From contig JAAYTA010000032.1 in the NCBI GenBank assembly GCA_012518185.1, forward strand, positions 1 to 40,773: DNA of 40,773 bases, written 5' to 3'. Below, one piece after another: positions 20,165 to 40,773 of this stretch; the stretch's first letter is position 1, and each line of letters begins with the position of its first letter. Under the pieces are notes generated by a model. That model saw nothing but the letters and a program-made list of their open reading frames with translations, searched no databases and was not told the DNA's origin. The position numbers and the translations under genes were made by a program. Source of the stretch: Methanobacteriota archaeon (GTDB lineage Archaea; Thermoplasmatota; Thermoplasmata; Methanomassiliicoccales; Methanomassiliicoccaceae).

Positions 20165-20986
20165 TTATGGAGGAAGCGCTCGATCATACGATCCAAGCAC
20201 CTTTACAAATACAGCTCTACGTACAAGATCGGCTAACGCTTCAGCTACTTCTGGTTCATCGGCATGACCGTCGATATCAACGAAAAATGCATATTCCCAA
20301 GTCCTACCTCTCCTAGGTCTGGACTCGACCTTAGTCATATTGATGTTCCGGGATGCGAAGCATCCCATAGCTTCATATAATGCTCCTGGCCCACTGCGAG
20401 TGGCGAATACTAAAGAAGTTTTATCTCCACTCTTAAGAAGATGAGACGCTTTCTCGAGTATGAAAAATCTAGTATAGTTCTCATTACTATCTTGTATACT
20501 CTCAAGAAGGACTTTCATATTGTAGACTTCAGCTGCACGCTTAGATGCAATGGCTACCTCATCGGCACGACTTCCATCACGTATCATTCTCACACTGCCG
20601 GCAGTATCGAATGAAGGAATTCTCTCCCAGGAAGGATGATTTGATAAGAAGCGACGACATTGTCCTAACGCTTGCGGATGCGAATATACTCTTTTTATAT
20701 CTGTGATATTAGTAGATTCGTGTCCGATTAGACAATGAACCACTTTCACTAAGACTTCGCCCACGATTATGAGATCATTCTCTAGCAATAGATCATTAAC
20801 AGCCGTAACACTCCCTTCTATCGAATTCTCAACGGGAACTACGGCCTTGTTGGCGTTATCTTCAGAGACTGCACGAAATACACTCTCAAAATCAACACAT
20901 GGTAGTGTATCGATTTCTCCGAAGAAGCGTGTTGCAGCATCCTCCGAAAATGCCCCTCTTACTCCTTGGAATGCCACTCGGACCAT
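20165..20986 (-). CDS. pheA: Prephenate dehydratase
   Basis: Converts prephenate to phenylpyruvate in Phe synthesis. The protein (273 residues) has the catalytic domain, VRVAFQGVRGAFSEDAA to NYTRFFILEK with the active Thr of the TRF motif, followed by an ACT regulatory domain: KTSLVFATRSGPGALYEAMG, then NMTKVESRPRRGRTWEYAFFVDI, where the ESRP motif binds Phe for feedback inhibition. No chorismate mutase domain is fused, since that domain sits on TyrA at 38006. The ATG at 20986 follows the lysC stop by one base and has GGTAGATGAT before it; ATGs at 21007 and 21034 lie inside lysC. It is the last gene of the his-lysC-pheA operon. Confidence 0.93.
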   Translation of the reverse strand: MVRVAFQGVRGAFSEDAATRFFGEIDTLPCVDFESVFRAVSEDNANKAVVPVENSIEGSVTAVNDLLLENDLIIVGEVLVKVVHCLIGHESTNITDIKRVYSHPQALGQCRRFLSNHPSWERIPSFDTAGSVRMIRDGSRADEVAIASKRAAEVYNMKVLLESIQDSNENYTRFFILEKASHLLKSGDKTSLVFATRSGPGALYEAMGCFASRNINMTKVESRPRRGRTWEYAFFVDIDGHADEPEVAEALADLVRRAVFVKVLGSYDRALPP

Positions 20987-20987
20987 A

Positions 20988-22358
20988 TCATCTACCGAAT
21001 AGCTCATAATGGATCGTCTTTGTCGTATGCTCAAGATCTTCTCGCTTCACAGTGAATGTAAGTGCGGCAAGAGATGCCCCAGCTGAGATTAGACCTATAT
21101 TTACTCCATTGGCAGCCACAGTGCCAAATACACTCCCAGCCACCCCTATCATTTCACCAATGCCTTCGCCAACAACACATAGTAAAGCAACTCCCTTCTC
21201 AGTCTCAATGCGATCTACGATAGTACTCTGAGCTCTAGCTAGCACTTTCTTGGCGAACTTCAGATCCACTTCCTCAATCAGGAGAGAGATGCATGTTTGA
21301 GAGGTTGCTGCTGAATAAACATTAATGCCTGCCTCTGAGAGAAGTACTGAGACTTCAGAAAGTACTCCACTTCTCGAGCCAAGACCCGGCCCATAAGCTC
21401 TCACAATAGCCATATCAGGCATACTGGAGATTGATTTTATAGTGCGAGCATCACTTATCTTTTCTGAATTACCGATGGATGTTCCAACATAGTCTGGCTT
21501 GAAGACGTTTCGGACTCTTATCATGATATCCTGGGCTTTAGCTGGTTCTACTGTCCGAGGATGCAATACTTTAGCGCCGAAATAAGATAATTCGGCTGCC
21601 TCCTCATAAGATAATATTTCTATCGGCACCGCGCCAGGAACCACTTTTGGATCGGCAGACATGAATCCATCTACGTCTTTCCATATTTCCAATGAATCGG
21701 CTTCAACAGCGCTAGCTATTACAGAGGCTGAGTAATCCGTCCCATTACGTCCGAATAATGTTATAGTCCCATCGGGAGCCTTACCGAAGAAGCCCGTGAT
21801 TACTGGTACTTCTTGCTTAGAGATCATTTCTCTAATGCGCGGTTGCACGTTCTGTCTAGTAACGCCCATATCTACTGAGGCCGAACCAAACTGTCCATCA
21901 GTAATGATGCCTAATTCATCAGCCTCTACAGGGACGGCATTGACGCCCATATCCTGAAGCATTGCTGATAATACAATGACGCTCATTCTTTCTCCGAATG
22001 ACTGAACTAGATCCTTAGTTCGAGGAGTGAGTTCTTCCAAGTATATTATCCCATAAAGTATCCTCTCTAAACGTATCAATTTCTCATTGAGCAAATTAAC
22101 TGCACGCTGCTTTACAAACATTGAGCTAGCAACGTCAGCTAGCATCCTTACATGACGATCTCGCAAGTTACGTATGAACCATTGAACATCCTGCTCCTGC
22201 CTTGGCATTGACATGAATTCAATGAGGGAATCAGTAACTCCATAGATTGCCGAAATAACTATGATGATTTCATCATCATCAGATGAAATTATAGAGCCCA
22301 CTCTTTTCATAGATATTCCATCCTTTAGTGAGCTGCCTCCGAACTTGAGTACCTTCAT
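20988..22358 (-). CDS. lysC: Aspartate kinase
   Basis: First step from aspartate toward Lys, Thr, Met and, in this organism, the ADH route to aromatics. The 456-residue single-function kinase begins VLKFGGSSLKDG. It also has GFFGKAPDGTITLFGRNGTDYSASVIA with the active Arg/Asp segment, DVDGFMSADPK, and EEAAELSYFGAKVLHPRTVEPA. Two ACT domains follow from about residue 310 (PGLGSRSGVLSEVSVLLSEAGINV, then VGEGIGEMIGVAGSVFGTVAANGVNIGLISAG), so feedback control by an amino acid is expected. Its start overlaps the PHP gene stop by one base. Confidence 0.95.
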   Translation of the reverse strand: MKVLKFGGSSLKDGISMKRVGSIISSDDDEIIIVISAIYGVTDSLIEFMSMPRQEQDVQWFIRNLRDRHVRMLADVASSMFVKQRAVNLLNEKLIRLERILYGIIYLEELTPRTKDLVQSFGERMSVIVLSAMLQDMGVNAVPVEADELGIITDGQFGSASVDMGVTRQNVQPRIREMISKQEVPVITGFFGKAPDGTITLFGRNGTDYSASVIASAVEADSLEIWKDVDGFMSADPKVVPGAVPIEILSYEEAAELSYFGAKVLHPRTVEPAKAQDIMIRVRNVFKPDYVGTSIGNSEKISDARTIKSISSMPDMAIVRAYGPGLGSRSGVLSEVSVLLSEAGINVYSAATSQTCISLLIEEVDLKFAKKVLARAQSTIVDRIETEKGVALLCVVGEGIGEMIGVAGSVFGTVAANGVNIGLISAGASLAALTFTVKREDLEHTTKTIHYELFGR

Positions 22359-23014
22359 TAACCACGTATCCTCCGAACTATCTCTCTCGGATTACGCGCA
22401 ACAGCCAATTCTATCTCTTCTTGATTCATGCCGGCGCCTGCGGCTACGGCTCTTGCCCTCTCATCAGTTATGAGATCACTAGGTGAGTGAGCATCAGAAT
22501 TAACGACAAGTTTGGCACCGATCCTTCGAGCTAAGGAAGCCACGTGCCCATTTGTCATGCAATGAGACGGCCTAGACGTTATCTCTAATAATACGCCATT
22601 ATCGGCAGCTGCCTGAACATCTTCCTCAGTTATGAGTCCAGGATGTGCTAGAATGTCAACGTCAGGATTATTTGTAGCTACCCGATTAGTACCCTTTTCT
22701 ACGGGTTCAGAGATAGTCTCGCCATGTACTACAATTATCTCGGCACCTAATTTACGAGCAGTAGACACAACTTCATCTATTTTTGTTACAGGTACATGAG
22801 TAATCTCACAGCCTACCAGTACTTCAATATCCCATTCAGCTGCTAATTCAGCGTCCTTCTTAGACTCATGTATAATTCTTTTGATATTCCCCGCAGATGC
22901 ATGATCTGTGAAGGCTAAAGCTTCATATTTCATGGCTGATGCTCTTCTGGCTAATTCGATAGGTAAGAGCGCCCCATCACTCAATAGAGTATGAGTGTGT
23001 AGATCTATCCTCAT
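22358..23014 (-). CDS. PHP-domain phosphoesterase, candidate histidinol-phosphate phosphatase
   Basis: A 218-residue PHP fold with its metal ligands in order: [11 protein letters not shown] (4-14), FTDHAS (35-40), the E of [10 protein letters not shown] after [20 protein letters not shown] and [10 protein letters not shown] near the C-terminus. Compared with bacterial HisK-type PHP phosphatases it is short and more like the stand-alone archaeal group often annotated as histidinol-phosphatase domain proteins. Its start overlaps hisIE by four bases (ATGA), so it is co-translated with histidine genes. Since no other phosphatase for histidinol phosphate is in this otherwise nearly full operon, it is the best local candidate. 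This is inference from context. Confidence 0.8.
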
Positions 23015-23622
23015 TTTCCTCCCCTATGTCTCGAAGTAAGTTTTTGAAAAATGTCTTTCCAGGGCAGATTCAGATATTCGAGAAGCACCATTTGGTGATA
23101 TACTAGATCAGCAGCCTCCCAGATCTGCGACTGTCGATCTCCTCCCTTACCAGCTATAGCGAGCTCTCCAGCCTCCTCGATGACCTTTTTTAAGACTAGA
23201 TCGTCGTCGGATAGCAATTTATTAGTGTAACTTCCTTCTACTGGATTCTCCTTCCGATCACGTATTATTCGTCTAAGCTCAGGTATAATGGCTGCTGTTT
23301 CTGATAAATTTCCATAAATAACTTCATCGAAGCAGGACGGTTTCTCAAGGTGACAAGCATCGCCAGTTTGACGAACTCTGACAAGTAATGTATCTGCATC
23401 ACAATCTATCTGCATGGATACTATATCTTGTACATTTCCCGAACTCTCTCCTTTCATCCAGAGCTTTTTCCGCGAACGTGAAAAGAAATGAGTTCGACCA
23501 GTTTCTAGCATCTTATTATATGCCTCTTCATTAGCATACGCTAGCATGAGCACTTCGTTAGTTTCAGCATCCTGTACTATTACGGGTAGTAGCCCATTCT
23601 CATCATACTTTAATCCAGTCAT
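23011..23622 (-). CDS. hisIE: Bifunctional phosphoribosyl-AMP cyclohydrolase / phosphoribosyl-ATP pyrophosphatase
   Basis: Steps 2 and 3 of His synthesis in one chain of 203 residues. The HisI domain (1 to about 110) has [37 protein letters not shown], then [13 protein letters not shown] and [12 protein letters not shown] with the zinc Cys residues. The HisE domain (about 112-203) has [29 protein letters not shown] and [13 protein letters not shown], with the acidic metal-binding helices. It overlaps hisF by four bases and the PHP gene by four bases. Confidence 0.95.
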
Positions 23623-24374
23623 CTTATTGCCACTCCCTTATCTCGAAGGTAGTCCTTTACTTGAGATACTGTCCAAGCACCATAGTGGAATATAGATGCG
23701 GCTAATGCGGCAGAAGCCCCTGTCTGCTGAAATACATCATACATATGTTCTGGGCCACCACATCCTCCCGAAGCTATAACTGGGATGCTAACAGCCTCAG
23801 AAACTGAATCTGTTAGCTCTAGATCATACCCGTTAGTAGTGCCATCGGCATCCATACTGGTCAGTAAGATCTCCCCTGCACCACGATCTTGAACTTCAGT
23901 GGCCCATGAGATCACATCTATACCAGTATTCTTGCGACCTCCTTGAGTATATACTATCCAACTGTCGCCTTCCCTCTTAGCATCAATCGCAACCATCATT
24001 CGCTGTCTACCAAATGTGTTTACACAATCATCAATGAGATCGGGAGACTGCACAGCTGCGGAACTAATCGATACTTTATCTGCTCCAGCCTTCAATGCAG
24101 CACGCATGTCTTCGACGGATCGGATGCCGCCTCCCACAGTTAGCGGGATAAACAGCTTTTCCACAGTCTTCTCTACAGATTCGAACAAAGTCTGTCTCGC
24201 TTCAATAGAAGCAGTAATGTCTAGGAAAACAATTTCGTCTGCACCTTGTGATTCATATCTCTGAGCAAGATCTGGAGGATATCCAACGCCCTCTAAGTTC
24301 TCAAATTTGACGCCCTTAACTACATGTCCATCTGAAACGTCCAAGCAAGGTATGATGCGTTTCGTAAGCGCCAC
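23619..24374 (-). CDS. hisF: Imidazole glycerol phosphate synthase, cyclase subunit
   Basis: TIM-barrel synthase that condenses ammonia with PRFAR, giving IGP and AICAR. The 251-residue protein has both catalytic Asp residues, in [14 protein letters not shown] and in [11 protein letters not shown], plus [23 protein letters not shown] and [13 protein letters not shown]. All expected HisF features are intact, in contrast to its partner HisH at 25624-26283. HisF proteins can use free ammonia in vitro, which matters here. It follows hisB directly (no gap) and overlaps hisIE by four bases. Confidence 0.95.
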
Positions 24375-24923
24375 TTACTCCCTCCTAAGGGAGACTGAAT
24401 CCTTAGTACTTAGCACACTACTTCTAGGAATGACTGCTCTTCGCAAGGCAGTGCCAAGAGCCTTGAATGAAGCCTCAATAACATGATGTTCATCGATTCC
24501 TCGATGTATAATGCCATGCAATGTTATGCCAGAAGACATAGCGAAAGAGCGGAAAAAATGAGCATATAACGTATCTGGACAATCGACATCGCAGTAAGGC
24601 CGATCGATGATATCTACTACCATAGTCACCAAGGCATCATCCATAGGGATCAGAGCAGAAGCAATACGCTCTACTGGAGAATCACCCAGTGCATCTTTGA
24701 ATGCAGTGCCAAGGGCAATAGCGATATCTTCTACCAGATGATGGATGTTATCTCCAGTAGCTTCTAATTGAAGATTGAAACTGCTGTATCTAGTTAATGT
24801 ATCTAACATATGGCAAAGGAATTGTTCATCAAGATCTATCTCGGCGCTCCCAGAGCCATCAATACCTAGCCATAGCTTGATATCTGTCTCTTTAGTCTTC
24901 CTCTCTATTCTGGAATCCCTCAT
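24375..24923 (-). CDS. hisB: Imidazoleglycerol-phosphate dehydratase
   Basis: Dehydrates IGP to imidazole acetol phosphate. The 182-residue protein has the duplicated metal-binding half-motifs: KTKETDIKLWLGIDG, QFLCHMLDTL, DNIHHLVEDIAIALG, then DDALVTMVVDIIDRP, HFFRSFA, TLHGIIHRGIDEHHVIEA. It is of the single-function type with no phosphatase domain, so histidinol phosphatase must be separate. FFDHML, the usual form of the second motif, is FLCHML here. The start is placed at 24923, where ATGA overlaps the hisA stop and GAGGGA lies before it; the ATG at 24938 is further inside hisA. Confidence 0.95.
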   Translation of the reverse strand: MRDSRIERKTKETDIKLWLGIDGSGSAEIDLDEQFLCHMLDTLTRYSSFNLQLEATGDNIHHLVEDIAIALGTAFKDALGDSPVERIASALIPMDDALVTMVVDIIDRPYCDVDCPDTLYAHFFRSFAMSSGITLHGIIHRGIDEHHVIEASFKALGTALRRAVIPRSSVLSTKDSVSLRRE

Positions 24924-25627
24924 TCCCTCTTCCTCCATATTTCTGAGTCAATGGTCCCAGCATAGAGTGCCAGGCCAACTATTGCCGAATCGATGCCTAG
25001 GTCCTCTAATTTACGAAGATCATCTTCCGTAGTGATGCCGCCGGCTGCTATGATGGGGTGTGGACATATATCTACGAACTCTGCCATCACTTCAGCATCA
25101 ATGCCTGCTGCTTTCCCTTCTACATTAATATTAGTATATAGGACACCCGCTAAGGGCAATCCCTCAGTACGATCCAGGATGTCTTTAACATCTCTATCAG
25201 AACTCTCTTTCCATCCTCTGACTTGAACCATCCCATCTCTTAGATCCAATGCCAGAACGATCTTATGTCTATTGTAATGAGCTAATTCTTCTAACCAATC
25301 AGGATCAGTAACTGCTCTTGTTCCGACTACTACTCGGGATGCGCCAAGATTAAGAAATGTCTCTGCCTTTTGAGTAGTACGTATGCCTCCGCCTATTTGG
25401 ATAGGTATACTTACTCTACTTAGAATCGATGTAATAGATTTGAAATTATCTCCCCGATCCATAGCGGCGTTAAGATCGACCAGATGGATCATAGGTGCGC
25501 CCTTTTCCTCCCATTCTAGAGCTACTTGCTGAGGATTAGGTAGAGATACTTTCTCAGTCCCTAACTTTCCACCTACAAGGGTGACTACTTTATCATCTAA
25601 TATGTCAACTGCTGGAATTATATTCAT
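24920..25627 (-). CDS. hisA: ProFAR isomerase HisA
   Basis: Isomerises ProFAR to PRFAR. A 235-residue TIM barrel with IIPAVDILDDKVV (first catalytic Asp), IPIQIGGGIRTTQKAETFLNLGA, LALDLRDGMVQVRGW (second Asp), and IIAAGGITTEDDLRKLEDLG. The phosphate/sixth-strand motif, usually TxIxxDG, is TNINVEG here, a mild change. The stop overlaps hisB and the start overlaps hisH, each by four bases. Confidence 0.94.
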   Translation of the reverse strand: MNIIPAVDILDDKVVTLVGGKLGTEKVSLPNPQQVALEWEEKGAPMIHLVDLNAAMDRGDNFKSITSILSRVSIPIQIGGGIRTTQKAETFLNLGASRVVVGTRAVTDPDWLEELAHYNRHKIVLALDLRDGMVQVRGWKESSDRDVKDILDRTEGLPLAGVLYTNINVEGKAAGIDAEVMAEFVDICPHPIIAAGGITTEDDLRKLEDLGIDSAIVGLALYAGTIDSEIWRKRE

Positions 25628-26283
25628 AATTTCTCCTCTAGGTATTTCACGAAGTTTCGCAGAAACATCGCACCTGAAGCACTGCTTTTTTCTGGATAGA
25701 ATTGTGTTCCAAACACATTCTTCTTACGTATTACTGATGGGAACTCTCCCATATAGTCAGTAGTACCTATGACTACGTCTTCTTTAGGAGAGTAATATTG
25801 AGAATGAGCGAAATAAAAGAAAGGAGACTTGACTCCCTCAAACATACGATTATCACTTTTCACTACATTCCAGCCCATATGTGGATTCTTCCCTATAGGG
25901 AACTGAGTTATGCTACCCTTAATGAGGCCAATGCCCGTAGTTCCACTATACTCATCAGTCTCAAATAATATCTGTGCTCCAGTGCCTATTCCTAGGCAAG
26001 GAGTTCCTGCATTGAGACGATCAAATATTATATCTCGATAATGGTCAAGCGACTTCATAGCATTGTTGAAAATGCCTGCGCCAGGAAATACGATTGCATC
26101 TGCGTCCATCAAGTTACGCATATTAGATTCAATCACCGGTCGTGCACCAGCTATCTCCAATGCCTTATGTATAGAATGGAGGTTTCCCACACCATAATCT
26201 GCAATAGATACTCTAACTTTAGGTCTTTGTCCAATACGATATGAATCGGTAGAATCTGGATACTTGACTGAGCGCCTTATCAT
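25624..26283 (-). CDS. hisH: HisH-family glutamine amidotransferase subunit lacking catalytic Cys and His
   Basis: In known systems HisH hydrolyses glutamine and passes ammonia to HisF. This 219-residue protein is clearly HisH: SIADYGVGNLHSIHKAL, FPGAGIFNNAM, PHMGWNVV, SPFFYFAHSQYY and FGTQFYPEKSS are in the right order. However, the nucleophile elbow, normally GICLGMQ, reads GIGTGAQ (Gly100, codon GGC at 25984-25986). The catalytic His of QFHPEKS is Tyr196 (codon TAT at 25696-25698). Only the Glu of the triad remains (198). Cys96, four residues before, is not at the elbow. The reading frame is intact and the other motifs are kept. The ATG at 26283 forms ATGA with the hisC stop; the first 20 or so residues are an N-terminal extension. 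Confidence 0.9.
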   Translation of the reverse strand: MIRRSVKYPDSTDSYRIGQRPKVRVSIADYGVGNLHSIHKALEIAGARPVIESNMRNLMDADAIVFPGAGIFNNAMKSLDHYRDIIFDRLNAGTPCLGIGTGAQILFETDEYSGTTGIGLIKGSITQFPIGKNPHMGWNVVKSDNRMFEGVKSPFFYFAHSQYYSPKEDVVIGTTDYMGEFPSVIRKKNVFGTQFYPEKSSASGAMFLRNFVKYLEEKL

Positions 26284-27332
26284 CCTTGCCATTCATCCAT
26301 CACCTCTTTCAACTTGGACAAGAGCATGCTATTGAGCTCCTCCGTCCCAACAGTAGTTCTAGCACAGTTTTCTAACAATCGCTGCCGACCGAAGTCACGT
26401 ATTAATATTCCCTTATCAGCAAGACGCGAAATCATAACTGATGAAGGCACGGGACAGCGGAAAAGGATGAAATTACTCTGCGATGGATATGGTTTGAACC
26501 CTAGATCTTCTAATCCGCGACTGAGTTTTTCTCTTTCTGTCTGAACCAATTCTATAGTCCTATCTATATATTCGTGATTTCGGAGTGCAGCTATCGCTAC
26601 CTGTTCAGAGAAACGATTAAGAGAATAGGGGATCTTGATTTTCTGCAATTGCTCGGCCATGTCTATATTAGCTGCCATATATCCTACTCTCAAACCCGCC
26701 ATCCCATATGCTTTGGAAAAGGTCCTAGTCACAATTAGATTGTCATAATCATTAACCATAGGCATGAAGGAGTAGTCAGCAAATTCTCCATAGGCCTCAT
26801 CTACAATTACTGGGCCATCATGCTCTCTTATTACTTGTTCGACAGCATCGGTGTCAAATGCATTGGCGGTCGGATTATTTGGCGTGCATAGTATTATGAT
26901 CTTACCTCTGGCCTTGATAAGAGCATCAGGATCTAGGTGAAAATCATCTGTGAGGTCAACTGTTTCGAAATGACCTCCATTGACTTTTACAAAGAAGCTA
27001 TGTAGAGAGTATGAAGGATATGGTGCAACTACTCTTTCACCCAATTCCATGAATGTTTTGAAGATAATATCTAATACCTCATCTGAACCGTTACCTACTA
27101 CAAAATTATCGGCCTTGAGATCATATGCTTCAGCCAATGCATCTCTTAAATCATCCGAATATGGTTTAGGATACTGATTAAGATTCATGTCAGCACAGTC
27201 TTCCAGAACATCATTAACTGCAGGGTTGGGACCCAGCACGTTAGTGGAAGTATCCATGCGAATTGCTTTGACTTTAGGATTATAGTACAACGGGATATCT
27301 CGAACCGTTGTCCTTACCCACTCCTTATTCAT
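26280..27332 (-). CDS. hisC: Histidinol-phosphate aminotransferase
   Basis: PLP enzyme that makes histidinol phosphate, 350 residues. It shows MDTSTNVLGPNPAV near the N-terminus, VGNGSDEVLDIIF, APYPSYSLHSFF, CTPNNPTAN, VIVDEAYGEF, and the PLP Lys in RTFSKAYGMAGLRVGYMAAN, then NFILFRCP. It differs from CobD (6787-7908) by the N-terminus and by lack of the HGGD motif. Eight bases separate it from hisG, and its stop overlaps hisH. Confidence 0.94.
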   Translation of the reverse strand: MNKEWVRTTVRDIPLYYNPKVKAIRMDTSTNVLGPNPAVNDVLEDCADMNLNQYPKPYSDDLRDALAEAYDLKADNFVVGNGSDEVLDIIFKTFMELGERVVAPYPSYSLHSFFVKVNGGHFETVDLTDDFHLDPDALIKARGKIIILCTPNNPTANAFDTDAVEQVIREHDGPVIVDEAYGEFADYSFMPMVNDYDNLIVTRTFSKAYGMAGLRVGYMAANIDMAEQLQKIKIPYSLNRFSEQVAIAALRNHEYIDRTIELVQTEREKLSRGLEDLGFKPYPSQSNFILFRCPVPSSVMISRLADKGILIRDFGRQRLLENCARTTVGTEELNSMLLSKLKEVMDEWQG

Positions 27333-27340
27333 TTTATCAC

Positions 27341-28204
27341 CTATGGAACCATCCGATCTATTGGAACTATCAGAATACCAGTACCGCCGATCCGCTTAAG
27401 CATATTAACCGAATCATAAATCTCAGCTTTATCTACAACCACATGTATGGCCACGATATCGTCTCTTCCAGCGATGTTCAATACTGTTGGTCCAGCCACT
27501 CCGGGCAGAAAGCTCCTCACTTCATCTAAAACATCGACCGGCACATCAGCCATTAAGTAACGCTTACCTTCTGCAGCCAATACACTCTCTATAGCCGATG
27601 CTAATTCCCTCATCTCCATTTCTTTATGATCTAGACTCTTTTTGGAGGCGACTAATACTGCCTGCGACTCAGCGATTACTGCTACTTCTACTAGCTTATT
27701 AGTCTTAAGCGTTGATCCTGATGATACGAGATCGACTATCACATCTGCTACGCCAAGATGCGGTGTTACCTCAGCTGCTCCAGATACAGCAATGATCTCT
27801 ACACTCTTATCGAGATTCTCAAAGAACTTACTCGTCATATGGGGAAATGATGTAGCAATTTTGGAACCATCAGGAATATCATCAATTGATTTGATATTCG
27901 ATGCTTCGGGAGCGGCTACCGAGAGGCGACATCGTCCGTAGTCAAGATCAAGCATCTTCTCAACTTCAAGATCTGTTTCAAGAACGATATCCCAACCGGT
28001 GATCCCCATATCGACCGCTCCCGAATGTACGAATCTAACAATATCTTGCGCACGCAAGAATAATACAGACATATCTCCATGATTTACAGTAGCGTAAAGT
28101 TTTCTCTCTGCTCCGTTCTCTATTTCCAGGCCCGCCTGTCGGAGGATCTCCATCGTCCTCTCGTTGAGGCGCCCCTTGTTCGGCACGGCCAGTTTCAAAG
28201 ACAT
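27341..28204 (-). CDS. hisG: ATP phosphoribosyltransferase, long form
   Basis: First step of His synthesis, 287 residues. The catalytic part has LAVPNKGRLNERTMEILRQAG, FLRAQDIVRFVHSGAVDMGITG, IATSFPHMTSKFF and the PRPP-binding EVTPHLGVADVIVDLVSSGSTLKTN. A C-terminal domain of about 75 residues (VSF-like LPGVAGPTVLNIAGRDDIVAIHVVV) is the ACT-like part of the long HisG form, which allows feedback inhibition by His and needs no HisZ. The operon starts here: GGTGATC (28207-28213) precedes the ATG, the clearest Shine-Dalgarno site in the window, and TTAATAATAA at about 28248-28257 is a likely TATA box. Confidence 0.95.
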   Translation of the reverse strand: MSLKLAVPNKGRLNERTMEILRQAGLEIENGAERKLYATVNHGDMSVLFLRAQDIVRFVHSGAVDMGITGWDIVLETDLEVEKMLDLDYGRCRLSVAAPEASNIKSIDDIPDGSKIATSFPHMTSKFFENLDKSVEIIAVSGAAEVTPHLGVADVIVDLVSSGSTLKTNKLVEVAVIAESQAVLVASKKSLDHKEMEMRELASAIESVLAAEGKRYLMADVPVDVLDEVRSFLPGVAGPTVLNIAGRDDIVAIHVVVDKAEIYDSVNMLKRIGGTGILIVPIDRMVP

Positions 28205-30901: not shown

Positions 30902-31402
30902 TTAGTGCAATATTATGCTCCTTACTCCCTCACATCTCTTTATTCGAGGAATCATTTCAGGAGGCACCATACTCTCAGTAATAATGTAGAGGCGAGGCTC
31001 TTCCATGAGGAGTGGATCATCTACTAGGGCTTGTCGTACACTTATTCCTGCTTCTGCAATCACACTCATTATTTCCGCTAGTATTCCTGGTGAATGTGCA
31101 TCAATAGGTACTATCTCAATACATGACCACCCTATTGCTGGCGCCACATCTCGTAACATGGATGTAGAGTGCAAATTAGCGAACACTTTATGCAACTCCT
31201 TCTCAGACTCTATAGTTTCTATCGTAGAGCGAACAATGCGCCGATCAACACCGGCGGCCCTTGATAATGCTATATCCGCAATTTCAATGTCTCCACAGTG
31301 GACCTTTCCATCCTTAACGCTGAGGCCCAATGATAGGAGTAATCGAGCTACTTTTCCCTGCGAAGGGTAACGGCCAAAATATTGAGAGAGCAATAGCCAC
31401 AT
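30902..31402 (-). CDS. HTH-ACT regulator of amino acid metabolism (COG2061 type)
   Basis: A 166-residue protein in two parts. Residues 8-75 look like a DNA-binding region: YPSQGKVARLLLSLGLSV, then IADIALSRAAGVDRRIVRSTIETI, which reads as a helix-turn-helix. Residues 88-166 are an ACT domain: GWSCIEIVPIDAHSPGILAEIMSVIAEAGISVRQALVDD, then LYIITESMVPPEMIPRIKRCEGVRSI. This order is that of a conserved archaeal family of presumed amino-acid-sensing regulators. It is divergent from the aromatic amino acid operon, whose promoter holds a perfect 16-base palindrome (31496-31511). Control of that operon by Phe, Tyr or Trp is a reasonable guess but not shown. Confidence 0.75.
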   Translation of the reverse strand: MWLLLSQYFGRYPSQGKVARLLLSLGLSVKDGKVHCGDIEIADIALSRAAGVDRRIVRSTIETIESEKELHKVFANLHSTSMLRDVAPAIGWSCIEIVPIDAHSPGILAEIMSVIAEAGISVRQALVDDPLLMEEPRLYIITESMVPPEMIPRIKRCEGVRSIILH

Positions 31403-31495
31403 AACATTGAATAATATATCAAGACTATTTGAGGATTACAGGACTGTTCATTAGAGAGCATAGTAGATCATCAATGTTTCTAATGAATACTGTCA

Positions 31496-31511
31496 TACAA
31501 TCTAGATTGTA
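31496..31511. promoter_or_regulatory. 16-base perfect palindrome upstream of the aro operon
   Basis: TACAATCTAGATTGTA reads the same on both strands. It ends four bases before the TATA-like GATAATATA (31515-31523) of the aro operon, at the position of the BRE. It also lies 93 bases upstream of the divergent regulator gene, so one dimer could serve both promoters. Perfect palindromes of 16 bases are rare by chance, and I see no second copy in the window. Confidence 0.6.
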
Positions 31512-31514
31512 AAA

Positions 31515-31523
31515 GATAATATA
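31515..31523 (+). promoter_or_regulatory. TATA box of the aro operon
   Basis: GATAATATA is about 38 bases before the ADH synthase ATG at 31557; initiation is predicted near 31544. GGTGA (31546-31550) is then a ribosome site at the very 5' end of the message, seven bases before the ATG. Confidence 0.45.
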
Positions 31524-31556
31524 CGTGCTAGACATTGTCACGCATGGTGAACTCAC

Positions 31557-32348
31557 ATGTTGGGAAAGGAAATCCGCCTGGAGCGGATAATGGATAGAAA
31601 TGTGGGAAGGGCGGTGATCGTACCAGTAGATCACGGTATTACTATGGGGCCAGTAGCTGGTCTAACAGATATGAAATCGACTATAGATAATATCTCCAAG
31701 GGAGGCGCCACAGGAGTCGTTATGCACAAAGGTGTAGTCCCATATGGTCACCGATCATTTGGTCATGATATTGGCCTCATAGTTCACTTATCTGCATCTA
31801 CTAGTCTCTCCCAAGATCCCAATGCTAAGGTGCTAGTAACCTCTGTCCAGGAGGCGCTCAAGATGGGCGCTGATGCTGTATCCATCCATGTTAATATTGG
31901 TGCTGATACTGAGCCAGATATGTTGAGAGACTTCGGAAACGTAGCTAGAGAATGTCAGGAATGGGGTATGCCATTACTAGTAATGATCTACCCCCGAGGC
32001 AAAGATATCGAGGATGATTACGATGTTGAATTGATAAAGCAGTGTGCTAGGGTAGGAATGGAACTTGGAGCAGATCTTGTTAAAACATCATATACTGGAG
32101 ATATAGACTCATTCCGAGAAGTAGTCAGGGGAGCAATAATACCAGTCCTTATAGCTGGAGGCCCGAAGGTTAGTTCGGATAGGGGCCTGTTACAGATGGT
32201 CGCTGATTCCATTGAGGCCGGCGGTCGGGGCGTAAGCATTGGAAGGAATATTTTTCAGCATCATAATGTATCTGGAATTACTAGAGCTGTTGCTGACATC
32301 ACACTACGGGATGCCACGGTGGATGAAGCTCTACAATGGCTACGGTGA
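31557..32348 (+). CDS. aroA': 2-Amino-3,7-dideoxy-D-threo-hept-6-ulosonate (ADH) synthase
   Basis: Class I aldolase-like enzyme that starts the archaeal aromatic route by joining aspartate semialdehyde with a 6-deoxy-5-ketofructose phosphate donor (known for MJ0400). The 263-residue barrel has IVPVDHGITMGPVAGLTD (22-38), MIYPRGKDIEDDYD with Tyr145, and DLVKTSYTGD with the Schiff-base Lys176, then PVLIAGGPKVSSDRGLLQMV and GGRGVSIGRNIFQH. Fructose-bisphosphate aldolase of the FbaB type is the close alternative, but the next gene is DHQ synthase II, which settles the role. It overlaps that gene by 13 bases. Confidence 0.92.
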   Translation: MLGKEIRLERIMDRNVGRAVIVPVDHGITMGPVAGLTDMKSTIDNISKGGATGVVMHKGVVPYGHRSFGHDIGLIVHLSASTSLSQDPNAKVLVTSVQEALKMGADAVSIHVNIGADTEPDMLRDFGNVARECQEWGMPLLVMIYPRGKDIEDDYDVELIKQCARVGMELGADLVKTSYTGDIDSFREVVRGAIIPVLIAGGPKVSSDRGLLQMVADSIEAGGRGVSIGRNIFQHHNVSGITRAVADITLRDATVDEALQWLR

Positions 32349-33373
32349 TGTATGTGGAAAAATCCATCTGGGTGAGGGCCGATCTTCCAGACTCTTATGA
32401 AGATAGGAAGGATATTGTAACCGCAGCGCTAGAGGCAGGACTCACTGATATAATCATAAGGCAAAGCGATGAACTGCTGCATCGATTGGGACGATTCAAT
32501 GCGATGGAAATAAGAGGAAATGATGTATTTCTCCAAGATAAAATAGTAGCCCATATTATCACTATTTCCGACTCGGATGACATGGATGCAGCTTATGCTA
32601 AAGAGGGATCAGAACGAGTAATTATATCTTCGAAAGACTGGAAAGTGATACCTCTAGAGAACCTGATCGCAGCATTTCAAGAGACGAATACTATACTGAT
32701 GGCCGAATCCCATAGTGTAGAGGAGACAAGACTTTTCCTTGAAACTATGGAAGTAGGAGTAGATGGAGTCGTAGTGATAGTAGAACCAGAGAAATTAACT
32801 GAAATAGCTTCTTTATACAATACCTCCAAGAAGGTAGAATTAATCTCGCTTCCAATTACTAACATCTCCCCACTCACAATTGGAGATAGAGTATGCATTG
32901 ACACATGTTCCATTATGCATCCTGGAGAAGGAATGTTGATAGGATCTCAGTCTTCTTGCCTCTTCTTAATAAGCTCTGAGAGTATAACTTCTGAATACGT
33001 TGCCTGTCGTCCCTTTCGGGTGAATGCAGGACCAGTACATGCATATGTACTAGCCCCTAATGGGCGAACTAAGTATTTATCTGAAGTAAGTAGTGGAGAT
33101 GAACTACTAGCCGTTTCGCCAAACGGAAATTCGCGAACGGTAGTAGTAGGGCGTGCCAAAGTTGAAAGACGACCATTGCTACTGATAGAAGTGGACGGAG
33201 GCGAGAGAAAATATAGCACTATTGTGCAGAATGCAGAGACTATTCGAATGGTTACATTAGATGGCCCTGTATCTGTATCAGATCTCTCCCCTGGTGATGA
33301 AATAATGGTAAGACTTGAAGAAGGAGGACGACACTTTGGTCATGCTATCAAGGAGACAATTACGGAGATATGA
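32336..33373 (+). CDS. aroB': 3-Dehydroquinate synthase II
   Basis: Converts ADH to 3-dehydroquinate with NAD-dependent deamination, the archaeal replacement of AroB (known for MJ1249). The 345-residue protein matches the family in EKSIWVRADLPDSYEDRKD, VDGVVVIVEPEKLTEI, the C-terminal block SITSEYVACRPFRVNAGPVHAYVLAPNGRTKYLSEVSSGDE, LLIEVDGG, and TIVQNAETIRMV. It ends by overlapping the AroD-AroE gene by four bases. Confidence 0.95.
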   Translation: MATVMYVEKSIWVRADLPDSYEDRKDIVTAALEAGLTDIIIRQSDELLHRLGRFNAMEIRGNDVFLQDKIVAHIITISDSDDMDAAYAKEGSERVIISSKDWKVIPLENLIAAFQETNTILMAESHSVEETRLFLETMEVGVDGVVVIVEPEKLTEIASLYNTSKKVELISLPITNISPLTIGDRVCIDTCSIMHPGEGMLIGSQSSCLFLISSESITSEYVACRPFRVNAGPVHAYVLAPNGRTKYLSEVSSGDELLAVSPNGNSRTVVVGRAKVERRPLLLIEVDGGERKYSTIVQNAETIRMVTLDGPVSVSDLSPGDEIMVRLEEGGRHFGHAIKETITEI

Positions 33374-34830
33374 TGACAATATGTGTATCAGTGAATGCTG
33401 CCAATATTGAAGAGGCAGCAGAAGCCACTGCAGCAGCTAAAGAATTGGGCGCAGATCTGGTAGAAATACGGTTTGACCTAATGGAAAATCCCATGGAAGA
33501 TTTGACTCCACTTAAGGATATCGATATTCCAAAATTAATTACTTTGAGGAGCAAATCCTATGGTGGAGAATGGGAATCAGATGATAAAGCCAGGCTCCAA
33601 TTATATCGACGCGCTGTGAAGGCTGGATTTAAATTAATTGACTTAGAGGATGATTCATCACTACTTGGCTCGCGAGATCGAGATTTGCGGAAGGCGGAAT
33701 TATTAGTCTCTCATCATGACCTAGAGGGCACGCCCCCTGAAAGTAAGTTAATAGAGATTATGCTACAAGCAGGCGTAAAGGGCGACCTTGCAAAGGGAGC
33801 ATTTACTGTCAATACAGTTGAAGAACTACATAATCTAGTTAAAGCAGGAAATTTAATCTCAATGACGGGGAAAAAGTTTGTATTGCTAGGCATGGGTGAA
33901 TTTGGCCCCATTACTAGACTAAGATATCGACGCATTGGATCTTCAATGACTTTTGCATCATTAGAGTCTGGAAAAGAAACTGCCATGGGGCAAATAGATA
34001 TCACTACTCTTAAAAAGATGGAGAAGGGCGTGATTACTGGCATCATTGGTATGCCACTTGGACACTCATATTCTCCCACTCTTCATCACAATGCATTTGA
34101 AGCCATGGATATCTCAGGAATGTATCTGAAGTTTCCAACTAGAGAAAACGAGGTTCCCTTAATTATCGACCTCATGCGCGATCTAAATATTAATGGGCTA
34201 AATGTGACCATTCCTCATAAGGAAAGCGTGATAGAATATCTCGATAAAATAGAGGACAGTGCTGAAGACGTTGGAGCAGTCAACGTCATCGTGAATAGAA
34301 AAGGCCGACTTATTGGTATGAATACTGATGTGTCAGGTATTGCTCAAGCATTCAAAGCCGCTAATGCAGATGTTAATGGAAAACGATCTCTGATAATTGG
34401 CGCAGGAGGGGCAGCGAGAGCATGTGCAGCATTCCTCCGTAGTGAAGATGCTGATATATTCATAACTAATAGGACGATGCCAAGGGCAGAAGAAGTAGCA
34501 AGTATGTTTTCTGGACAAGCTGTTGGAGCAGATGAAGCTATCAATCTCGAACCCGATGTCGTGATCAATTGTACACCCCTTGGCATGAAAGGATTCCCCT
34601 CAGAATTACCCATAGATCCCAAGATATTGCGCACTGGACAAGTGGTTATGGATGTCATATATAATCCAGAACTAACGCCACTGTTAATAGAGGCCGAGAG
34701 TAGAGGATGCTCAATAATTTCAGGCAAGGAAATGCTGATCTATCAGGCAATAGATGCCTTTGAAGCCTGGACAGGTCAGCGCCCATCATACGAAGTCATG
34801 GCCGAGGCGGTTAGGAAGGAGCAGGAATGA
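33370..34830 (+). CDS. aroDE: Bifunctional 3-dehydroquinate dehydratase / shikimate dehydrogenase
   Basis: Two consecutive shikimate-pathway enzymes in one chain of 486 residues. The type I dehydratase (1 to about 215) has E32 in VEIRFD, the His pair 115-116 in LVSHHDLEGTP, and the Schiff-base Lys142 in GDLAKGAFTVN. The dehydrogenase (about 222-486) has GMPLGHSYSPTLHHNAFEAM, NVTIPHKES with K284, AVNVIV, GMNTDVSGI, and the NADP-binding GAGGAAR (344-350) and NRT. Both active sites look intact. The fusion is known in plants, with relatives in a few microbes, while many archaea keep two genes. It overlaps neighbours on both sides by four bases. Confidence 0.95.
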   Translation: MMTICVSVNAANIEEAAEATAAAKELGADLVEIRFDLMENPMEDLTPLKDIDIPKLITLRSKSYGGEWESDDKARLQLYRRAVKAGFKLIDLEDDSSLLGSRDRDLRKAELLVSHHDLEGTPPESKLIEIMLQAGVKGDLAKGAFTVNTVEELHNLVKAGNLISMTGKKFVLLGMGEFGPITRLRYRRIGSSMTFASLESGKETAMGQIDITTLKKMEKGVITGIIGMPLGHSYSPTLHHNAFEAMDISGMYLKFPTRENEVPLIIDLMRDLNINGLNVTIPHKESVIEYLDKIEDSAEDVGAVNVIVNRKGRLIGMNTDVSGIAQAFKAANADVNGKRSLIIGAGGAARACAAFLRSEDADIFITNRTMPRAEEVASMFSGQAVGADEAINLEPDVVINCTPLGMKGFPSELPIDPKILRTGQVVMDVIYNPELTPLLIEAESRGCSIISGKEMLIYQAIDAFEAWTGQRPSYEVMAEAVRKEQE

Positions 34831-35675
34831 GGGGGCATGGGACCAGCCATGGTGCAGCCACTATAGTCAGTGCGCTTGCTACAGGGAAGGGTGCTGCATT
34901 CGGTATAGACTTAACAACTACTGCCGACGTAATTTTAGAAGAGGGCAGCGGCATTGACGTTATCATTGAAGGCATAACAGAAGAATCTCCTTCTCTAGCT
35001 ATGGAATGTGCCCGTACTGTCTTAAACAAGTATGCCAGTGGCAAAGAATATCACGTTAGTATCGTGACGAGATCAGATATACCTGCATCACGTGGACTTA
35101 AGAGCAGTAGTGCAGCTGCCAATGCCATAATTGAAGCCATGCTAAACGCGCTGGACGTAGAATACAACGATATGGATGCAGTTCGACTTGGAGCTAAGGC
35201 GGCTATTAGGGCTGGTGTCTCAATTACAGGGGCCTTTGATGATGCCTGTGCTTCCAAATTTGGTGGTATATTTCTGACAGATAATACAACTAACACTGTC
35301 ATTTCTCGAGATATAATGTCAGACCTTTCCATATTCATACATGTTCCAGAATATCAGATTCGAAAGTCCACACTCCCTAAGGAACGCATGGTAGCTATTG
35401 GAGATATGATAGATATAGCATTTCAACTAGCAAAAAAAGGAGATTATCTCAGAGCACTCACTCTCAATGGACTTTGTTATTCTACTGCACTTAGTCTTGA
35501 TACAGAGATTGTGATAAAAGCATATCAAGCTGGTGCGATAGCAGCAGGCCTAACTGGGAGTGGACCAGCTACTATTATGTTAGTAGAGCATACGCAGGCA
35601 GATGATTTTCAACGCCAGATGAAAGAATACTCACTCATGAAAACAAGTGTAAATAATGGTAGGTCGAAAATATGA
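34827..35675 (+). CDS. aroK: Shikimate kinase, archaeal GHMP type
   Basis: Phosphorylates shikimate; the archaeal enzyme belongs to the GHMP kinase superfamily and is unrelated to bacterial AroK. The 282-residue protein starts RGHGTSHGAATIVSALATGKGAAFGIDL, has the ATP-binding motif PASRGLKSSSAAANA (around 88-102), GAFDDACASKFGG, and the C-terminal motif AGLTGSGPATIM. The ATG overlaps the stop of the AroD-AroE gene. Confidence 0.93.
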   Translation: MRGHGTSHGAATIVSALATGKGAAFGIDLTTTADVILEEGSGIDVIIEGITEESPSLAMECARTVLNKYASGKEYHVSIVTRSDIPASRGLKSSSAAANAIIEAMLNALDVEYNDMDAVRLGAKAAIRAGVSITGAFDDACASKFGGIFLTDNTTNTVISRDIMSDLSIFIHVPEYQIRKSTLPKERMVAIGDMIDIAFQLAKKGDYLRALTLNGLCYSTALSLDTEIVIKAYQAGAIAAGLTGSGPATIMLVEHTQADDFQRQMKEYSLMKTSVNNGRSKI

Positions 35676-36940
35676 AACTCGATATATCAAAATCTAGTAT
35701 TCAGGGAGTTGTTGAAGCCCCTCCTTCAAAATCATACACTCATCGAGCGATAATACTAGCTGGCCTAGCGATGGGCGAGAGTGTCATCCGTAAACCGCTG
35801 CTTAGTGATGATACTCTAGCTACTCTAAAGGCCATGGAGCAATTTGGAACTGTAGTAAAGCGCGAAGGGCAAGACTTCATATTGCGCGGAGGTAGACTGA
35901 ACGCCCCTCTTGAAGAGATAGATTGTGGGAACTCAGGCACAACGTTAAGGCTACTGACTGGAATAGCATCTTTATTATCGTCTACTGTAACGCTAACTGG
36001 TGATGCATCATTACAACAGAGACCTATGAGGCCCTTACTCAACGCGCTTAGTAGTATGGGTGTATCGGCCAAATCATCTCGAAATGATGGAAAGGCTCCT
36101 ATTCTCATCCGCGGACCAAATGAGGGAAGATGGACGCATATAAAAGGAGATATAAGCTCACAATTCATATCATCACTTCTTATCAGCTCTGCTCTCAAGG
36201 ATCTAGATACTGAAATAATATTGACTACGCCGTTAAAATCTAGGCCCTATGTAGACATGACAATTCAAATGATGGAATGGTTCGACGGCAGATGTTATGA
36301 AATTAAGAATGGCTTCCGGGTCCAGGGTGGTCAGACATATCGGCCATACTCTCTAACTATTCCTGGAGACTATTCGTCAGCTGCATATCCCCTCGTAGCC
36401 GGCGCATTAGCAGGAAAAGTCACTGTGAAAGGCCTTTCATTAGACGATCGACAGGGCGATCGAAAGATTGTAGATATTTTAGAGTCGTTTGGTGTCACAA
36501 TATCAAGAGGTGATGATCAAATTACTGCAGAGAAGGGAGCACTTACAGCCAATGATGTAAATCTTTCAGACAGTCCTGATTTATTCCCAATACTAGCAGT
36601 GCTTGCCACTCAAGCCAACGGTATAAGTCGATTATATGGAGCTAGTCATCTCAGACATAAAGAAAGTGATCGTATCCACGCCACAGTTACATTCCTTAAG
36701 ACTATGGGTGCAGATATAGAGGAGAGAGAAGATGGTTGTGAAGTTCGCGGCCCTACACCTCTAAAAGGTAATAAGGTGGAGACAACAGGAGACCATCGCA
36801 TCATGATGGCAGAAGCAGTTGCAGCATTGATAGCTGATGGAGCAACAATTATTAACGAATCAGAAAGTGCTTCTATTTCATATCCTTCCTTTGTTGATGA
36901 TTTGCGTCGACTAGGTGCCAATATCGGAGGCGATTCATGA
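35672..36940 (+). CDS. aroA: 3-Phosphoshikimate 1-carboxyvinyltransferase (EPSP synthase)
   Basis: Transfers enolpyruvate from PEP to shikimate 3-phosphate. The 422-residue protein has APPSKSYTHRAIILAGLA (11-29 region), the DCGNSGTTLRLLTGIASL motif with LTGDASLQQRPMRPLL, IKGDISSQFISSLLISSAL, GDYSSAAYPLVAGAL, the catalytic DSPDLFPILAVLA, SHLRHKESDRI, and GDHRIMMAEAVAAL. It uses ATGA-type coupling with both neighbours. Confidence 0.95.
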   Translation: MKLDISKSSIQGVVEAPPSKSYTHRAIILAGLAMGESVIRKPLLSDDTLATLKAMEQFGTVVKREGQDFILRGGRLNAPLEEIDCGNSGTTLRLLTGIASLLSSTVTLTGDASLQQRPMRPLLNALSSMGVSAKSSRNDGKAPILIRGPNEGRWTHIKGDISSQFISSLLISSALKDLDTEIILTTPLKSRPYVDMTIQMMEWFDGRCYEIKNGFRVQGGQTYRPYSLTIPGDYSSAAYPLVAGALAGKVTVKGLSLDDRQGDRKIVDILESFGVTISRGDDQITAEKGALTANDVNLSDSPDLFPILAVLATQANGISRLYGASHLRHKESDRIHATVTFLKTMGADIEEREDGCEVRGPTPLKGNKVETTGDHRIMMAEAVAALIADGATIINESESASISYPSFVDDLRRLGANIGGDS

Positions 36941-38025
36941 ACACTATTGGGACGTTACTTAGACTAACATTATTTGGCTCAAGTCACGGCCCAGGAGTAG
37001 GATGCGTCTTAGATGGCGTACCTTCCGGATTATACATTACCGAAGATGATATACAGCGAGATTTAGATCTTAGAAGGCCTGCTGCATCAATAGGGACTCC
37101 AAGAGTGGAAGCAGATCGTGTTGAACTATTAGCTGGCATTCAGGACGACTTCACGACTGGCGCTCCAATCGTGATATTTATTGCTAATCATGATACGGAT
37201 AGTTCAAAATACATTAAATTTCGAACAGTTCCTAGGCCTGGACATGCTGATTTGACTGCTCTGAATCGATATGGAGATACTGTTGATTTACGCGGTGGAG
37301 GGCAATTTTCTGGACGAATGACTGCTCCTATAGTGGCAGCAGGTGCTATTGCTAAAACTATGCTAGCATCTATTGGCGTACAAGTTGCTGCTTACACACA
37401 GAGATTGGGGTGCCTAGTTGATGAAAAGGAACGATATCTCAAAGATATTCGTCACGCTTCTAGAGAGAATCCCATTCGAGCAGCCGACCCTGAATTGGCA
37501 TTGGACATGATCAATGAGATTATGGCTATGAAAGAGGAAGGCGATAGTGTAGGTGGCGTGATACGATGCCTTGCAGTGGGACTTCCAATGGGAGTTGGAG
37601 AGCCATATTTTGACTCTCTAGAGGGAGAATTAGCCAAGATGTTATTTTCTATACCGGGCGTAAAAGGTGTAGAATTTGGCTCTGGTTTCAGGAGCGCAGA
37701 GATGCGAGGTTCAGAACACAATGATCAGTTTATCATTGAAGATGGAGAAGTTCGCACCATTACCAATAATGCAGGGGGCATTCTTGGTGGATTATCCAAT
37801 AGCATGCCTATAGACCTAAGAGTCGCTATCAAGCCTACTGCATCTATATCTAGAGAACAGAGAAGCGTAGATCTAGAGCGAATGGAAGACACTACTATAA
37901 AGGTTGACGGAAGACATGATCCTTGCATAGTACCGCGTGCTGTGATTGTAGTAGAGGCAGCTACGGCTTTAGTTCTGGCTGATATGTGTCTAAGGGGTGA
38001 TTTTATTGCGAGAGAGCATAGATGA
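36937..38025 (+). CDS. aroC: Chorismate synthase
   Basis: Eliminates phosphate from EPSP to give chorismate, with reduced FMN as cofactor. The 362-residue protein has GTLLRLTLFGSSHGPGVGCVLDGVPSGL, RPGHADLTALNRYG, DLRGGGQFSGRMTAPIVAAGAIAK, PGVKGVEFGSGF, MRGSEHNDQF, NNAGGILGGLSNSMPIDLRVAIKPTASI, and RHDPCIVPRAVIVVEA. No flavin reductase domain is fused, so reduced FMN must come from elsewhere; the flavin reductase-like gene at 19614 is one possible source. The end overlaps tyrA. Confidence 0.95.
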   Translation: MNTIGTLLRLTLFGSSHGPGVGCVLDGVPSGLYITEDDIQRDLDLRRPAASIGTPRVEADRVELLAGIQDDFTTGAPIVIFIANHDTDSSKYIKFRTVPRPGHADLTALNRYGDTVDLRGGGQFSGRMTAPIVAAGAIAKTMLASIGVQVAAYTQRLGCLVDEKERYLKDIRHASRENPIRAADPELALDMINEIMAMKEEGDSVGGVIRCLAVGLPMGVGEPYFDSLEGELAKMLFSIPGVKGVEFGSGFRSAEMRGSEHNDQFIIEDGEVRTITNNAGGILGGLSNSMPIDLRVAIKPTASISREQRSVDLERMEDTTIKVDGRHDPCIVPRAVIVVEAATALVLADMCLRGDFIAREHR

Positions 38026-39079
38026 TATTCGAAAAAGGATCGAAAAGATAGATTATGAAATCCTCCGCATGATGGCTAATAGGACTGCAGCAGCTGTAGA
38101 GATGGGGAGAATGAAGGCCAATGAATCCATGCCCCTAAGAGCCCCAGCAGTCGAGGAACGTGTCATTGGACGCTATATTGATAAAGCCAAAGATTTTGGC
38201 ATGTCCGCTTCCTCAGCTAGGCAGATAGCACGTCTGCTAATCCGCGAATCGATCGAGCAGCAGGGACACATACCTAGGCCCTCACTCTCTAAACGAGTAT
38301 TTATTATCGGAGGTAGTGGTAAAATGGGTAGATGGTTAGCAGATCTACTCGAATCTCGTGGTCATCGTATACGCATATACGATGTCGTCGAGAGTGACAA
38401 ATTTCCTATGGAGAGAGATCTAGCGCGCGGAGTACGTGAAGCTGAGGTAGTAATCATTGCCACACCAATATCTGCCACTAGAGGAATGTTAAAAAAAGTG
38501 ATTGAGCTAAAGCCTGAGGGGCTGGTATTTGACATTGCATCAGTAAAAAATCCCTTTCAAGATCTGCTACAGAATGGTGTAGAGAATGGCTTAATTCTAT
38601 GCTCTCTACATCCCATGTTCGGACCGGATGCATATAGCATTATCGATCGTAATATAGTAATATGCAACTGCGGCTCCACTGATGCAGTAGATCGTGCAAG
38701 TGCATTGATGGATGGAGCAAATATCATGGAGATCGAATTAGAAGAACATGATCCCATTATGGCATATGTATTAGGCCTTAGTCATGCCACTAACATCGCA
38801 TTCTTTGAGAGCTTGCGAGCTAGTGGGATGTCATTTGAAAACTTATCACGTGCCGCATCTACTACATTCCGAAAACAAGTGGATACTGCAAGAGATGTAG
38901 CATCGGAAAATTCACAATTATATTATGAGATACAACGTATGAATCCCCATAATGCTAATGCACTAGCGTCGCTGCAAAAGGCACTTGAAGAGATCCGAAT
39001 AGCTTCTGAGAGAGATAGTCAGGATATGTTCAAGCACATGATGAATGAGGGGAAAAATTATTTCGGAGGCAATCAATGA
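38006..39079 (+). CDS. tyrA: Bifunctional chorismate mutase / prephenate dehydrogenase
   Basis: The N-terminal AroQ-type mutase (1 to about 90) has the three-helix pattern RESIDDIRKRIEKIDYEILRMM with NRTAAAVEMGRMK. The dehydrogenase has VFIIGGSGKMGRWLADLL, VIIATPISATRGML, VFDIASVKNPF, LHPMFGPDA and LSHATNIAFFESL. It makes 4-hydroxyphenylpyruvate precursor for Tyr. The start is better placed at TTG 38006 than at GTG 37997: GGGGTGAT (37994-38001) is an excellent Shine-Dalgarno site four bases before TTG, and GTG 37997 lies inside it. From here the chain has 357 residues and overlaps aroC by 20 bases. Prephenate dehydratase is a separate gene (20165-20986). Confidence 0.93.
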   Translation: MRESIDDIRKRIEKIDYEILRMMANRTAAAVEMGRMKANESMPLRAPAVEERVIGRYIDKAKDFGMSASSARQIARLLIRESIEQQGHIPRPSLSKRVFIIGGSGKMGRWLADLLESRGHRIRIYDVVESDKFPMERDLARGVREAEVVIIATPISATRGMLKKVIELKPEGLVFDIASVKNPFQDLLQNGVENGLILCSLHPMFGPDAYSIIDRNIVICNCGSTDAVDRASALMDGANIMEIELEEHDPIMAYVLGLSHATNIAFFESLRASGMSFENLSRAASTTFRKQVDTARDVASENSQLYYEIQRMNPHNANALASLQKALEEIRIASERDSQDMFKHMMNEGKNYFGGNQ

Positions 39080-40137: not shown

Positions 40138-40145
40138 GTGAGAAC

Positions 40146-40773
40146 TTGAAACGCACATATGAGGAGATCAATGCCAAAATCCAGCGTGGCGACGCTGTCG
40201 TAATGACAGCTGAGGAAGCCATTGAGCTGGTAGAGAGCAAAGGCATAGAGAAGGCGACCAAGGAAGTGGATGTCGTTACCACCGGTACATTTGGCGCTAT
40301 GTGTTCCTCAGGAGCGTTCATAAACTTCGGACATTCAGAACCTCCGATCCGGATGAAGCGCGTATGGTTGAATGAAGTCCCAACTTTTGCAGGTATCGCT
40401 GCTGTGGATGCATATATTGGCGCTACTGAGGAAAGAGACGATTATGGAGAACTATATGGTGGCGCACATGTGATAGAGGACTTAGTGGCCGGAAAAGCTG
40501 TTCATCTGCGAGCATCAGCTACTGGTACTGACTGCTATCCTAGAAAGGATATAGACACGTATATTTCACTGAGGACGGTAAACCAGGCATACATGTATAA
40601 TCCTCGGAATATCTATCAGAATTATGGTGTAGCAACCAATTCATCTGATCGAACTCTATTTACCTATATGGGCAAGCTGCTTCCTCATTATGGAAACATT
40701 ACGTATAGTAGCGCTGGACAATTATCTCCTTTGCTAAAAGATCCCCATCTCAGAACTATCGGTATCGGTACAC
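40146..40773 (+). CDS. Homocysteine biosynthesis protein, DUF39 (C-terminus cut by window edge)
   Basis: TTG at 40146 with AGGTGA before it opens a frame that runs to the window end (209 residues). It begins [40 protein letters not shown] holds Cys53, then [33 protein letters not shown], and [11 protein letters not shown] with Cys130. This is DUF39, which in methanogens makes homocysteine from aspartate semialdehyde and sulfide with persulfide chemistry on conserved Cys. The iron-sulfur and CBS domains often found at or after its C-terminus are beyond the window. Its place eight bases after asd matches its substrate. Confidence 0.88.

Follow-up and report, generated by a model that had tools for sequence, protein, structure and literature searches.

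The window analysed in this study, a stretch of 40,773 nucleotides from a Methanomassiliicoccaceae MAG (GCA_012518185.1, contig JAAYTA010000032.1), carries a row of histidine biosynthesis genes in the order hisG, C, H, A, B, F, IE. The genes relevant here are all encoded on the minus strand:

27341..28204, minus strand, hisG (profile match)
26280..27332, minus strand, hisC, overlapping the start of hisH by 4 bp
25624..26283, minus strand, hisH (TIGR01855; PF00117; AlphaFold; Foldseek)
24920..25627, minus strand, hisA, overlapping hisH by 4 bp
24375..24938, minus strand, hisB (profile match)
23619..24374, minus strand, hisF, the cyclase partner of HisH (profile match)
23011..23622, minus strand, hisIE (profile match)
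30902..31402, minus strand, ACT-domain gene, the neighbour of carB in relatives; carAB are absent here

The strand of hisH had not been given in the initial annotation, and reading 25624-26283 on the plus strand yields stops. From the ATG at 26283 the frame is open over 219 aa, as had been claimed, and the ATGA coupling proposed for both sides of the gene agrees with the ORF coordinates, which revealed 4-base overlaps with hisC and hisA. An alternative in-frame ATG at 26292 would add three residues (222 aa), while the start at 26283 is matched in the alignment by the HisH start of a relative (L017). Residue numbers refer to the 222-aa frame, in which Gly103 and Tyr199 correspond to Gly100 and Tyr196 counted from ATG 26283. 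HisH scored 169 bits against TIGR01855 (curated cut-off 105.4), by which, together with the operon context between hisC and hisA, family membership was met, and 46 bits against PF00117. Structure prediction with AlphaFold resulted in a pLDDT of 86.9 and a pTM of 0.84, and the best Foldseek matches of this model were the solved HisH chains of 7AC8, 1KA9, and 1GPW (target-normalised TM of 0.83-0.90). Judged by the predicted model, the criterion of a retained class-I glutaminase fold is met. A second intact HisH, which the initial annotation had named as a refutation of its proposal, was searched for and not found in this genome (1.6 Mb, 139 contigs).

Compared with the solved HisH of Thermotoga maritima (7AC8/1GPW), the family, fold, place in the operon, HisF-facing motifs, and triad Glu are shared, while the catalytic Cys and His are missing and both the oxyanion strand and the glutamine-pocket loop are altered. 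The respective sites are as follows:

26215..26283, minus strand, family-specific N-terminal extension, kept (1/16 invariant sites changed)
26062..26088, minus strand, oxyanion strand, PGVGAFD changed to PGAGIFN (V72A, equivalent to T. maritima V51; A74I; D76N)
25984..25986, minus strand, nucleophile codon GGC, Gly103 (Gly100), at the position of T. maritima C84; Cys in 14/14 relatives
25933..25962, minus strand, loop after the elbow helix (glutamine pocket), SEEG..P changed to DEYS..T (S113D, E115Y, G116S, P119T)
25696..25698, minus strand, catalytic-His codon TAT, Tyr199 (Tyr196), at the position of T. maritima H178; His in 14/14 relatives
25690..25692, minus strand, triad Glu codon GAA, retained

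With a nucleophile elbow reading GIGTGAQ and a histidine motif reading QFYPEKS, the Cys-His-Glu triad of a functional HisH glutaminase is not met, the residues being Gly, Tyr, and Glu. The reported loss of both catalytic residues therefore stands, as the GGC and TAT codons are found where HisH of all 14 other Methanomassiliicoccaceae genomes compared has Cys and His. The check for a clade sharing Gly and Tyr came out negative: HisH is intact in the other five genomes of the genus, and the loss is confined to the species studied here. Further changes lie close to these positions, C103G in the elbow and H199Y in the histidine motif being accompanied by V196T in the latter; Gln107 is retained. 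V51 and L85 of T. maritima take part in the oxyanion hole of HisH (PMC8115485), and the counterparts of both fall in segments altered here. The equivalence of E115 with T. maritima E96 is based on the family alignment, HMMER placing the gap differently. Cys99 (PCLGI) was considered as a replacement nucleophile and rejected, since it is common to all relatives, which have the elbow Cys as well.

At sites that are invariant in the other genomes, HisH has changed in 17/112 cases compared with 52/1204 in nine neighbouring genes (Fisher p = 2.7e-5). Within HisH the changes are unevenly spread, affecting 10 of the 26 invariant sites in glutaminase-site segments, which were picked post hoc, and 7/86 elsewhere (p = 6e-4). 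The fold and interface motifs, likewise described as kept in the initial annotation, hold up in the Foldseek matches and in the HisF-facing motifs YGVGNLHSI (0/9 changed) and PHMGWN (0/5); together with the N-terminal extension, these segments have changed at only 1/30 invariant sites. The extension comprises about 23 residues ahead of the usual HisH start, is conserved in the family (L002-L015), and is predicted to be disordered in the monomer.

Measured on a fixed tree, HisH of this species has a branch 6.3x that of the sister species, while other genes reach 1.4-4.0x; HisF, at 4.0x, is the second-fastest gene of the compared set on this branch. HisF keeps the motifs that contain the counterparts of T. 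maritima D11, D98, K99, D130, and E167. It also displays a GGRKNTG motif near the T. maritima form where relatives have the GGRRRTE type, as well as N104S. For HisH, dS on this branch is saturated and dN is about 0.2; due to the saturation, only dN and no dN/dS ratio is given. These values indicate that the HisH frame was constrained on average over the branch, and they do not date the loss. This pattern has to be weighed against relaxed decay, in which a host-dependent, genome-reducing species would carry HisH and PurQ pathways that are on their way out with frames not yet broken. The acceleration of both HisH and HisF is in line with such decay, yet the HisF-facing motifs and the N-terminal extension were kept while the glutaminase site eroded, the other his genes and PurL are open, and the other his genes are little changed at invariant sites. 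Moreover, saturated dS implies ample time for stop codons to arise had hisH escaped constraint over most of this branch. Overall, we regard decay as unlikely, though as a possibility to be kept in mind.

A profile search with PF00117 detected only HisH in this genome, while each of nine relatives gave 5-11 matches. The conclusion that all class-I glutaminases had been lost was rejected, as PF13507 revealed PurQ, the glutaminase of FGAM synthase, on contig C8 (10762-11607; 209 bits), which itself lacks the nucleophile. Its elbow reads GIGNGFQ in place of the GICNGFQ or GVCNGFQ of the eight relatives aligned, the same Cys-to-Gly exchange as in HisH, and its oxyanion strand PGGSSAGD instead of PGGFSAGD (F-to-S). 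Archaeal PurQ was reported to keep its Cys and Glu throughout in a survey of purine genes (PMC3261824), and the PurQ of this genome differs. The change in PurQ is accelerated, with 18/124 invariant sites changed in this species compared with 5/210 in GlmS and 11/305 in GatE. PurL adjoins PurQ and its frame is open. The catalytic His of PurQ is retained, which is a point against the explanation favoured below. HisH, for its part, keeps the triad Glu and Gln107, as might be expected if catalysis had changed and both proteins had gained a new activity or turned to another amide donor. However, neither has a nucleophile in the elbow, and the shared Cys-to-Gly exchange, taken with the absence of glutamine synthetase, suggests that the reaction was lost rather than replaced by a new one, so that we consider changed catalysis very improbable.

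Loss of a gene and a gap in the assembly were told apart by the neighbouring genes in relatives. Queries with PyrG, CarA, CarB, and GMPS-A from relatives resulted in no match in this genome, while all were found in three relatives. The GMPS-A locus of relatives has the order FprA, GMPS-A, HAD; here FprA (contig C110, 19208-20398) adjoins HAD (20765-21490), which is followed by a retained GMPS-B (21499-22467). No glutamine synthetase (PF00120) was detected in this genome, compared with at least one in each of 9/9 relatives, and the second GlnA-like gene of relatives was not found in it either. In two relatives (G005 and G007), glnA lies between AlaX and NAC, while here AlaX (contig C114, 2326-3546) is followed by NAC (3783-4151) with about 240 bp in between. 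For carAB, relatives show the order ACT, carB, carA, pelota; here the ACT gene (window 30902-31402) adjoins UPF0280 and pelota (contig C21) adjoins a NIL-ferredoxin gene. carAB are thus missing at both ancestral junctions, and no remnants were detectable in the stretches read. As far as can be deduced from gene order, this fits an inversion of the block from ACT to ferredoxin plus a deletion of carAB. Within the window, the ACT-shikimate-asd block (30902-40773) has the opposite orientation to that in relatives; its breakpoints lie at UPF0280 and next to the missing carAB. All three deletions (glnA, GMPS subunit A, and carAB; contigs C114, C110, and C21) are clean and lie between conserved neighbours.

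Other genes of relatives that were not found here are pyrG, aIF2-beta, gatB, and those for a presenilin-type protease and a SprT-like protein, by gap or loss. Loss of PyrG is not claimed, as its neighbour aIF2-beta is missing too and its absence is probably an assembly gap; neither is loss of GatB, since AspRS is cut by a contig end where GatB would follow. On sequence grounds, the putatively dead or absent triad glutaminases are HisH, PurQ, GMPS-A, and CarA among those covered, a comparison that does not extend to PyrG, cobalamin-type GATase_3 enzymes, and PdxT.

The evidence comes from one MAG (1.6 Mb, 139 contigs, 95.7% complete, 2% contamination) without reads or a second strain, which leaves room for errors of sequencing, assembly, or binning. 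Such errors would have to explain many clustered amino-acid changes in HisH beyond the two codons and the same pattern in PurQ on a separate contig. In addition, synteny is conserved, base composition is uniform, and the deletions lie inside contigs with intact flanks, so that we give this explanation hardly any credence. The GC content of the window and other stretches of the genome is about 42%, compared with 54-65% in the stretches sampled from other members of the genus, and the genome is smaller, which fits genome reduction. Composition and size, together with the deletion of several biosynthetic genes, are also what relaxed decay would predict.

Glutamine has not disappeared from the metabolism of this species. 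A complete switch to ammonia was rejected, as PurF and GlmS keep their N-terminal catalytic Cys. GatD and GatE are also present, GatD with the TGGT and HGTDT motifs; GatDE may take Asn in place of glutamine. Retention of these enzymes, a point against the ammonia reading, indicates that glutamine, or Asn in the case of GatDE, is still used somewhere, whether imported or made otherwise. GlmS, to our knowledge, cannot use free ammonia, and some glutamine must therefore still reach the cell.

Several known properties of the synthase partners bear on the likely nitrogen donor. HisF forms its product in vitro in the absence of HisH when ammonium salts are supplied (PMC11350729), and high NH4+ rescues hisH mutants of Klebsiella pneumoniae (cited in PMC5919458). 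The ATPPase subunit of two-subunit GMPS uses external ammonia (PMC10526850). Free ammonia is normally low because it is captured by glutamine synthetase (PMC3376133), and in relatives within the order it is thought to come from the environment or from methanogenesis on monomethylamine (PMC4153887). The lost glutamine synthetase, the known use of ammonia by HisF and GMPS-B, and the ammonia sources of relatives make direct use of ammonia likely, and it is probably free ammonia that supplies these pathways in this species. This reading lacks direct support from ammonia levels, from transporters, or from glutamate dehydrogenase, which counts against it.

Taken together, we consider it likely that HisH is glutaminase-dead and kept as a partner of HisF, as part of a shift across the lineage in which free ammonia replaces glutamine for reactions of this class; loss of activity, the complex of dead HisH with HisF, and ammonia as donor are inferred. 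HisH would be unable to hydrolyse glutamine and would serve HisF as a structural, possibly regulatory, partner, an allosteric function not having been shown. Of the initial annotation's proposal, the pseudo-glutaminase kept as HisF partner remains the best reading in view of the losses of glnA, GMPS-A, and CarAB and the Cys-to-Gly exchange in PurQ; ammonia from another amidotransferase, which it had left as an option, is less likely because the other examinable class-I glutaminases are dead or gone. HisF, PurL, and GMPS-B, which all stay, may take ammonia directly, while glnA, the PurQ nucleophile, GMPS-A, and carAB would be parallel losses in one species. A wider version, to which we lean only slightly, holds that triad-class glutamine transfer has been dismantled genome-wide, with histidine, FGAM, and GMP made via ammonia and dead glutaminases surviving only as permanent structural partners. 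In two-subunit GMPS the partners come together only transiently, which sets it apart from other glutamine amidotransferases built from two subunits (PMC10526850). We infer that GMPS-A may have been dropped for this reason, and that HisH and PurQ may have been kept as permanent structural partners; this rule of retention is likewise an inference.

By analogy, the clearest precedent is CPS1, in which a class-I glutaminase domain without catalytic Cys is kept and the synthase works on free ammonia (PMC4655335). HisH meets the criterion of a pseudo-glutaminase of this type, the nucleophile being lost and the fold and synthase partner kept, with use of ammonia by HisF inferred here. CPS1, however, is one fused animal enzyme with a Cys-to-Ser exchange, while the present case concerns separate archaeal subunits from two pathways, both with Cys replaced by Gly and HisH additionally with His replaced by Tyr, other glutaminases having been deleted. 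Single-domain NadE similarly draws on free ammonia in vivo for an ATP-dependent amidation (PMC3376133), though there the glutaminase is absent and not retained as a dead subunit. In the Klebsiella hisH mutants supplied with NH4+, HisF likewise runs without glutaminase, but these are laboratory mutants and not a natural lineage (cited in PMC5919458). Pseudo-glutaminases such as CPS1 have been described before, as has HisF supplied with ammonium; no description of a natural pseudo-HisH, a pseudo-PurQ, or such a genome-wide set was found in the open-licence literature, and the genome-level pattern, predicted from sequence, was not found described.

Amidotransferases are commonly held to need their glutaminase because glutamine synthetase keeps free ammonia low. 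In this lineage the synthetase and, one after another, the glutaminases seem to have been lost, which would offer a natural test of the roles of a glutaminase subunit beyond making ammonia. The prediction is that HisH and PurQ would be needed for shape or regulation, while GMPS-A would be dispensable. The species may also be a source of well-studied allosteric enzymes in forms that naturally run on ammonia.
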